From the NCBI GenBank assembly GCA_016788785.1, contig JAEUSM010000007.1:186001-250000 (forward strand): a stretch of 64,000 bases of DNA, written 5' to 3'. This DNA comes from Candidatus Kapaibacterium sp. GTDB taxonomy: Bacteria; Bacteroidota; Ignavibacteria; Kapaibacteriales; JAEUSM01. The notes under the pieces were generated by a model. It was not told the DNA's origin and did no database searches. It was given only the letters and a program-made list of their open reading frames with translations. Both the position numbers and the translations under genes were made by a program. Below, piece by piece: positions 1-1,906 of the stretch; the stretch's first letter is position 1; each line of letters starts with the position of its first letter.

Positions 1-312
1 AGCAGATCTGGCACCACTCAGACAATACAAATACACAGGTTTTGATTTGTCTAATTTTTCGATTTGCTTCAAAAAGTCTAAAGAACCTGAGTTGATATTG
101 GTAGCATTAAATAATGCACCTGATTGAAATTCTTCTGCAGTCCGAACATCTATTATCTGGGGTGAAGGATCCTTTTCGATAAGGGTTTTAAACTCTTCAG
201 CTGACACTTTTGTACCATAGGTGATATTCTTTTCTTTTGATTGACATGAGCAAAGCAACATAGTAACTATGACCATAAATGATAACGATGATGTCAAAAT
301 CGATTTTTTCAT
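1..312 (-). CDS. Rhodanese-domain lipoprotein (C-terminus cut by window edge)
   Basis: The reverse strand reads open from an ATG at 312 to the window edge, giving 104 residues without a stop. The N-terminus is a lipoprotein signal: two lysines, a hydrophobic run and a lipobox ending at Cys23, preceded by Leu-Cys-Ser. A rhodanese domain follows, with the IIDVRTAEEF strand-turn near residue 53 and the active-site loop C97-L-S-G-A-R102. Rhodaneses move sulfane sulfur on this cysteine; this copy would act in the periplasm, tethered to a membrane. It lies 95 bp downstream of the small membrane gene and in the same direction, so it may belong to the same sulfur module. The last residues lie outside the window. 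Confidence 0.85.
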   Translation of the reverse strand, partial: MKKSILTSSLSFMVIVTMLLCSCQSKEKNITYGTKVSAEEFKTLIEKDPSPQIIDVRTAEEFQSGALFNATNINSGSLDFLKQIEKLDKSKPVYLYCLSGARSA

Positions 313-407: not shown

Positions 408-623
408 CTAATCTTTTGAACGTTGATAGATTGGAATTTTTTTTGGGGGAATTTGGCATTGTTTACATGGAAACAATAATTGTGCTACAAAAAAGAAAAC
501 CAAAAACAATACAAATGGGTTTTGCCATATCCACCAAATGGTAGCAAAACCCATTATTATAAGCATTCTAATAAGTGTTGAAGAATTTAGTGTTACTTTG
601 CTAAAAAATGGCAGTTGTTTCAT
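408..623 (-). CDS. Small membrane protein coupled to rhodanese operon
   Basis: A 71-residue protein with a strongly hydrophobic stretch (about residues 18-45) rich in Ile, Phe and Trp, ending in a Cys-rich FPCKQC patch and a basic tail. I chose the ATG at 623 because it overlaps the TAA stop of the upstream rhodanese by one base (TAATG), a standard translational-coupling arrangement. A longer reading from 653 would run into that gene. I do not recognise the family. The position suggests a membrane partner of the sulfurtransferases, like the small transmembrane segments fused to rhodaneses in YgaP-type proteins, but that link is inference. Confidence 0.6.
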   Translation of the reverse strand: MKQLPFFSKVTLNSSTLIRMLIIMGFATIWWIWQNPFVLFLVFFFVAQLLFPCKQCQIPPKKIPIYQRSKD

Positions 624-937
624 TATTGAATTTTTTGTTGTAAAGAATACCAACCACCCCCATTATGCACCTTCTCAAAGCCTTTTTTTCGTAAAAGAGA
701 CTTTGCAGCAGAACTTCTCATACCAGAAGCACAACAAGTAATTATCATCTTGTTTTTGGATAATTTTTTGCTTCGAGAATCTAATTCATCTAAAGGTATA
801 TTGATTGAGCCGCTGATATGACCACCAGAATATTCACCCTTTGTTCTTACATCAACGATTACAGCACCATTGTTTATTTCTTGTTTGATGTCAATGGAAG
901 GTCCAATGCCAAAAATTGATTTAAGTAAACTAATCAT
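623..937 (-). CDS. Single-domain rhodanese sulfurtransferase
   Basis: A 104-residue rhodanese-like protein. It shows the VDVRTKGEY strand-turn near residue 28, the GHISGSINIP segment, and an active-site loop C69-A-S-G-M-R74 in which the catalytic Cys69 is preceded by a second cysteine, Cys68. The protein is cytosolic, with no signal peptide. Its start overlaps the end of the upstream rhodanese by four bases (ATGA) and its stop overlaps the next gene's start (TAATG), so the run is translationally coupled. Rhodaneses transfer persulfide sulfur between small thiols and proteins. With OsmC and a Crp-type regulator upstream, a role in reactive-sulfur or persulfide handling is the best reading; the sulfur acceptor cannot be read from sequence. 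Confidence 0.9.
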   Translation of the reverse strand: MISLLKSIFGIGPSIDIKQEINNGAVIVDVRTKGEYSGGHISGSINIPLDELDSRSKKLSKNKMIITCCASGMRSSAAKSLLRKKGFEKVHNGGGWYSLQQKIQ

Positions 938-1886: not shown

Positions 1887-1906
1887 TTTGTGACAAATAT
1901 CACAAA
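1887..1906. promoter_or_regulatory. CRP-type operator palindrome
   Basis: TTTGTGA-CAAATA-TCACAAA is a perfect 7-bp inverted repeat with a 6-bp spacer, and contains the exact TGTGA-N6-TCACA core bound by Escherichia coli CRP. Its centre is about 33 bases upstream of the middle of the -7 box, close to the -41 position of class II activator sites. It overlaps the last codons of the regulator gene. The adjacent Crp/Fnr protein has the matching recognition-helix residues, so it is the likely ligand. Confidence 0.75.

Follow-up and report, generated by a model that had tools for sequence, protein, structure and literature searches.

The palindrome at positions 1887-1906 of the analysed window, a stretch of 64,000 nucleotides from contig JAEUSM010000007.1 of Candidatus Kapaibacterium sp., is confirmed by sequence comparison as a real, widely conserved predicted operator for the neighbouring sulfur-detoxification operon. 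It is probably the operator of the adjacent Crp/Fnr-family regulator, which would activate the osmC operon from a class II position, would be paired with its operator through residue 185, and would sense sulfur or thiols at Cys80. The site, its conservation, the promoter phase, the residue-operator association, the invariance of Cys80, and the sulfur-type neighbours were all computed. That the regulator binds there, that it activates and does not repress, and what it senses are inferred, as follows. A dimer of the regulator would bind the palindrome through R184, E185, and R189, about 41.5 bp 5' of the start set by a TAnnTTTG box, and would thereby exert class II activation of the osmC-DUF6132-rhodanese-rhodanese genes. 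The predicted operator is joined to the 3' end of the regulator gene and takes in its stop codon. The likeliest signal would be reactive sulfur species or the thiol redox state, sensed at Cys80, which is predicted just before a short helix that takes the place of the cAMP phosphate-binding cassette of CRP. The result would be a regulator matched to its operator, with promoter geometry kept among relatives, next to genes for sulfane-sulfur detoxification. It is possible, but less so than the local reading, that such persulfide- or thiol-sensing Crp/Fnr activators are widespread, with an invariant Cys where CRP binds cAMP, a repeated natural E/V toggle between TGTGA and TGTAA, and an operator often placed in the stop codon.

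Operator and gene environment

Positions 1887-1906 read TTTGTGACAAATATCACAAA, or TTTGTGATATTTGTCACAAA when read along the strand that codes for the operon, and match TTTGTGA-N6-TCACAAA exactly. The first-pass annotation had described a perfect palindrome 5' of an osmC-rhodanese operon, and the match is indeed exact and the single one both in the window and in the whole 2.97-Mb assembly. By chance, 0.0008-0.003 exact matches are expected in the window, and 0.04 (composition) or 0.13 (first-order Markov model) in 2.97 Mb. With up to three mismatches allowed, the motif shows no enrichment in the window (7 matches vs. 12 expected). Perfect 7-N6-7 inverted repeats of any sequence number 10 in the window and are therefore not rare; the distinctive point is the particular palindrome sequence at a particular place, not the inverted repeat as such.

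On the minus strand, the palindrome lies between the gene of the Crp/Fnr-family regulator (1900-2550, 216 aa), assigned from profile matches, alignment, and a structure model, and osmC, whose ATG is at 1818. The regulator gene ends with a TGA stop codon (1900-1902, minus strand) that doubles as the TGA of one TGTGA half-site. The gene order 3' of the operator is osmC-DUF6132-rhodanese-rhodanese, all coded on the minus strand: an OsmC-family protein (1378-1818, PF02566) is followed by a small DUF6132-like membrane protein (1185-1370; weak match below the cut-off, neighbour also in relatives) and two rhodanese-domain proteins (934-1188 and 623-937, both PF00581). Another rhodanese-domain protein (1-312, minus strand, PF00581), with a lipoprotein-like signal, runs off the window and is a candidate member of the operon. 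A small membrane-type ORF with no family match is located between rhodanese genes (408-653, minus strand). Just past the start of the regulator gene, a tRNA-Cys gene is coded on the opposite strand (2679-2750).

Conservation of the site among relatives

The sample comprised 228 distinct regulator relatives with flanking DNA, window included; a single-sequence scan of genome contigs had led to one relative only. A Bacteroidia record (L032) is among the relatives and, together with the promoter type, suggests phylum Bacteroidota for the source of the window. At first look, with the CRP motif not in mind, the commonest dyad in the flanks was GTAAC-N4-GTTAC, from which the common form TGTRAY-N4-RTYACA was derived. 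By the strict rule (this form near the regulator gene with at most one mismatch), 94 of 228 loci have the site vs. 8 in the reversed-sequence control, and the remaining 134 relatives have no site by this rule; in the first set, it was present in 62 of 142 loci vs. 2 in the reversed control. The relaxed rule, allowing two mismatches if the promoter box was in phase, gave 117 loci from 33 family groups vs. 12 in the control, and the site stands behind the regulator gene in 107 of the 117. The stop codon is part of a half-site in 40 of these 117 loci, a placement favoured by the scan because three positions are matched beforehand by a TAA or TGA stop. The first-pass annotation had proposed a palindrome search at related loci and named lack of conservation as grounds against the operator; the search found the site conserved, and the objection fell away.

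The nearest relative (L219) has a regulator 52% identical and belongs, by kinship codes, outside the class of the window. Its site, AATGTGATATTTGTCACAAA, is identical to that of the window over 18 bases (TGTGATATTTGTCACAAA) and has the box in phase. A YgaP-TM protein and then a metallo-beta-lactamase-rhodanese fusion are coded after the phased box; the latter we take to be the domain pair of persulfide dioxygenases. In L082, L083, L073, L075, L077, and L081, the site is placed 5' of the regulator gene itself, and such a position suggests autoregulation in some relatives.

Residue 185 and the operator sequence

R184-E185-x3-R189 of the regulator aligns with R180, E181, and R185 of CRP, so the equivalence of these residues to the CRP contacts, claimed earlier, was upheld; with the predicted operator, the window has the full CRP set for TGTGA. 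R184 and R189 are invariant in the 228 relatives; at residue 185, 118 of them have E, 109 have V, and 1 has A. In the strict set, E-type loci with a site include 53 with at least one TGTGA half-site and 1 without, and V-type loci 5 with and 35 without (Fisher 2.9e-19, a raw value with no kinship correction). V regulators are found mostly with TGTAA half-sites, and E-type operators often have one TGTAA half. The relaxed set contains more exceptions (E: 61 with a TGTGA half, 5 without; V: 5 with, 46 without). When the recognition helix was left out of the tree, nine E/V changes appeared; among loci with sites, five independent pairs were supported, none of them discordant, and this number limits the p of a sign test to 0.0625.

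Judged from these alignments, the key operator letter seems mostly to follow residue 185 of the regulator, E going with TGTGA and V with TGTAA. The earlier statement that the DNA code of CRP is kept is thus valid in part: it agrees with the invariant R184 and R189, but residue 185 varies between E and V and the operator shifts from TGTGA to TGTAA along with it, so that the code toggles and is not simply kept. CRP mutants E181V, L, and K reportedly lose the G:C preference at that position (Ebright and colleagues, 1984); no work on CRP E181 mutants was found in our literature search of limited coverage. For HcpR, DNR, and NnrR, Rodionov and colleagues described a link between motif positions and the residues R180 and E181 (PMC1274295). 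Regulators that naturally carry E or V, each type with its corresponding operator, represent a series for probing this classic CRP specificity residue.

Promoter geometry and mode of regulation

In Bacteroidetes, the -7 element has the consensus TAnnTTTG (PMC7366714). In the window, such a box, TATTTTTG, is located at 1860-1867 on the minus strand; it begins 29 nt from the operator centre, and its TTTG is at 33 nt, which sets the operator at about -41.5. This is the class II position of CRP, and the placement relative to the TAnnTTTG box given in the first-pass annotation was accordingly recovered, in a phase that is conserved in relatives. Of the 94 loci, 57, the window among them, have TTTG 33 nt from the operator centre, vs. 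0.52 per offset elsewhere (binomial about 1e-103, kinship ignored), and this count is independent of the operator search. The genome contains six TGTRAY-N4-RTYACA palindromes; only that at 1887-1906 has the phased box, and the five other sites, which lack a correctly phased -7 box, were rejected. A sigma-70 promoter scan gave no excess over shuffles.

The regulator could also bind this operator as a repressor, or as a repressor and activator, and not as a class II activator. Crp/Fnr proteins are capable of both, and for HcpR, repression was predicted at sites overlapping the -10 box (PMC545781). The site in the phased loci, however, leaves the -7 box uncovered, and most loci keep one fixed spacing to that box, as for RNA polymerase contact at -41.5. 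Repression, alone or combined with activation, is therefore unlikely, and class II activation is the preferred reading of this geometry.

The regulator and its possible signal

The putative activator matches PF00027 with its N-terminal domain, and PF13545 and PF00325, all above cut-off; together with fold matches, these place it in the Crp/Fnr superfamily. It is not recognized as a member of the cAMP-dependent CRP family (NF008732), as it scores 33 bits vs. a cut-off of 266. Residues E72 and R82/S83 of the CRP cassette have no counterpart in the regulator when the two proteins are aligned, in agreement with the previously noted absence of the cAMP-binding Arg-Ser. In the AlphaFold2 model (pLDDT 92.6), the recognition helix spans residues 184-196, and a helix at 81-89 follows directly after Cys80. 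Every one of the 228 relatives has Cys80. A cysteine pair as a general switch was rejected, since only 83 of 142 relatives have C at position 86, and 53 of 142 at position 87.

At least one sulfur-type neighbour (rhodanese, TauE, YgaP-TM, OsmC, YeeE, SQR-like, or DUF6132) occurs at 170 of 228 loci; the counts are 91 for rhodanese, 52 for TauE, 42 for YgaP-TM, 36 for OsmC, and 21 for YeeE. These neighbours vary between loci, and the search for them drew on a limited reference set. The invariant Cys80 together with sulfane-sulfur neighbour genes suggests thiol or persulfide sensing, and a thiol or persulfide would be the signal of the regulator. A live alternative is heme: with Cys80 as its ligand, the protein may bind heme and sense gases in the manner of CooA or HcpR. 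The regulator is distantly related in sequence to CooA and HcpR, and heme binding is known for PgRsp, a further Crp/Fnr protein, from P. gingivalis (PMC6955866), but the neighbours are of sulfur type and not of CO or nitrogen-oxide type, and a heme sensor seems quite improbable. Our literature search of limited coverage found no sulfur-linked Crp/Fnr family to compare with the thiol or persulfide sensor proposed here.

cAMP setting of the genome and other palindromes

The class III cyclase domain PF00211 has 37 matches in the genome, on contigs C1, C4-C6, C12-C15, C17, and C18, and many of them are clustered, e.g., at C6:399653-427117. The regulator is the only HTH_Crp_2 protein of the genome. 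Four other cNMP-binding-domain matches are present at C12:146319-146576, C15:402009-402263, C15:75100-75342, and C17:172721-172972, the last of them below the curated cut-off. The match on C12 is a few kb away from a cyclase cluster. With 37 cyclase domains and other cNMP-binding matches, the first-pass wording 'outside a cAMP context' is unsafe for the organism; it may hold for the regulator, whose pocket, without the cassette, argues against cAMP as the ligand.

Still, the regulator might answer cAMP or cGMP from the many cyclases via an unusual pocket, as it is the single HTH_Crp_2 protein in so cyclase-rich a genome and has a PF00027 domain. Against this stand the missing counterparts of the CRP cassette residues, the cysteine that relatives keep at the cassette place instead, and the four other cNMP-binding matches, which are candidates for the nucleotide; a cyclic nucleotide is considered very unlikely. 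A CRP-type site in a cyclase-rich genome need not report on cAMP.

The second-best palindrome of the genome (L002, C6:423283, one mismatch) sits just behind a cyclase gene in the cyclase cluster; it was rejected because it apparently falls within the next coding sequence and has no promoter box. That the palindrome at 1887-1906 is a terminator stem of the regulator gene, being at the gene 3' end and able to pair as RNA, or a chance repeat of the common 7-N6-7 type, is extremely improbable, since the sequence, the promoter phase, and the residue link are conserved, and the terminator is disfavoured by the missing T run after the palindrome and a fold not clearly better than shuffles (z -1.22).

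Relation to known systems

A CRP-type operator read by a non-cAMP regulator has its precedent in HcpR (PMC545781, PMC1274295). Desulfovibrio HcpR was assigned the motif wTGTGAnnnnnnTCACAw in 2004-2005, with R180/E181 correlated with the motif (PMC545781, PMC1274295). Like the regulator of the window, it is a Crp/Fnr protein not known for cAMP, with a CRP-like operator and R180/E181 linked to it in a comparison of relatives; compared by description, it differs in controlling hcp and frdX in nitrosative stress, whereas sulfur-type genes are found here. No hcp was seen in the neighbourhood read. HcpR of P. gingivalis (9day) is a distant match to the regulator of the window. cAMP-independent Crp homologues are already known (PMC12040651), and CrpPg and PgRsp of Porphyromonas gingivalis, likened by description, are cAMP-independent Crp/Fnr regulators likely from the same phylum but with other targets (PMC12040651, PMC6955866).

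E. coli CRP shares the equivalents of R180, E181, and R185, the TGTGA-N6-TCACA operator, and the class II spacing; its cAMP cassette is not preserved in the regulator of the window, which as far as seen serves a local operon in contrast to the global regulon of CRP. The best match both by sequence and in Foldseek is PDB 3dv8, a Crp/Fnr protein of Eubacterium rectale from structural genomics, with a Cys aligned with Cys80 and R-E-x3-R; it is from another phylum, and its function is not given. The combination of sulfur genes, fixed class II geometry, the E/V toggle, and a stop codon in the operator was not found in the literature search of limited coverage.

HcpR2 of clostridia and Bacteroides has the motif GTAACnnnnGTTAC, which is the operator of V-type members, but it has Pro at position 181 and controls hcp (PMC1274295), whereas the relatives of the window have Val. 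In the V-type loci L066, L068, L104, and L124, the operator TGTAAC-N4-GTTACA equals the HcpR2 consensus GTAACnnnnGTTAC (PMC1274295), so that a site of one family might be mistaken for, or read by a regulator of, the other family.
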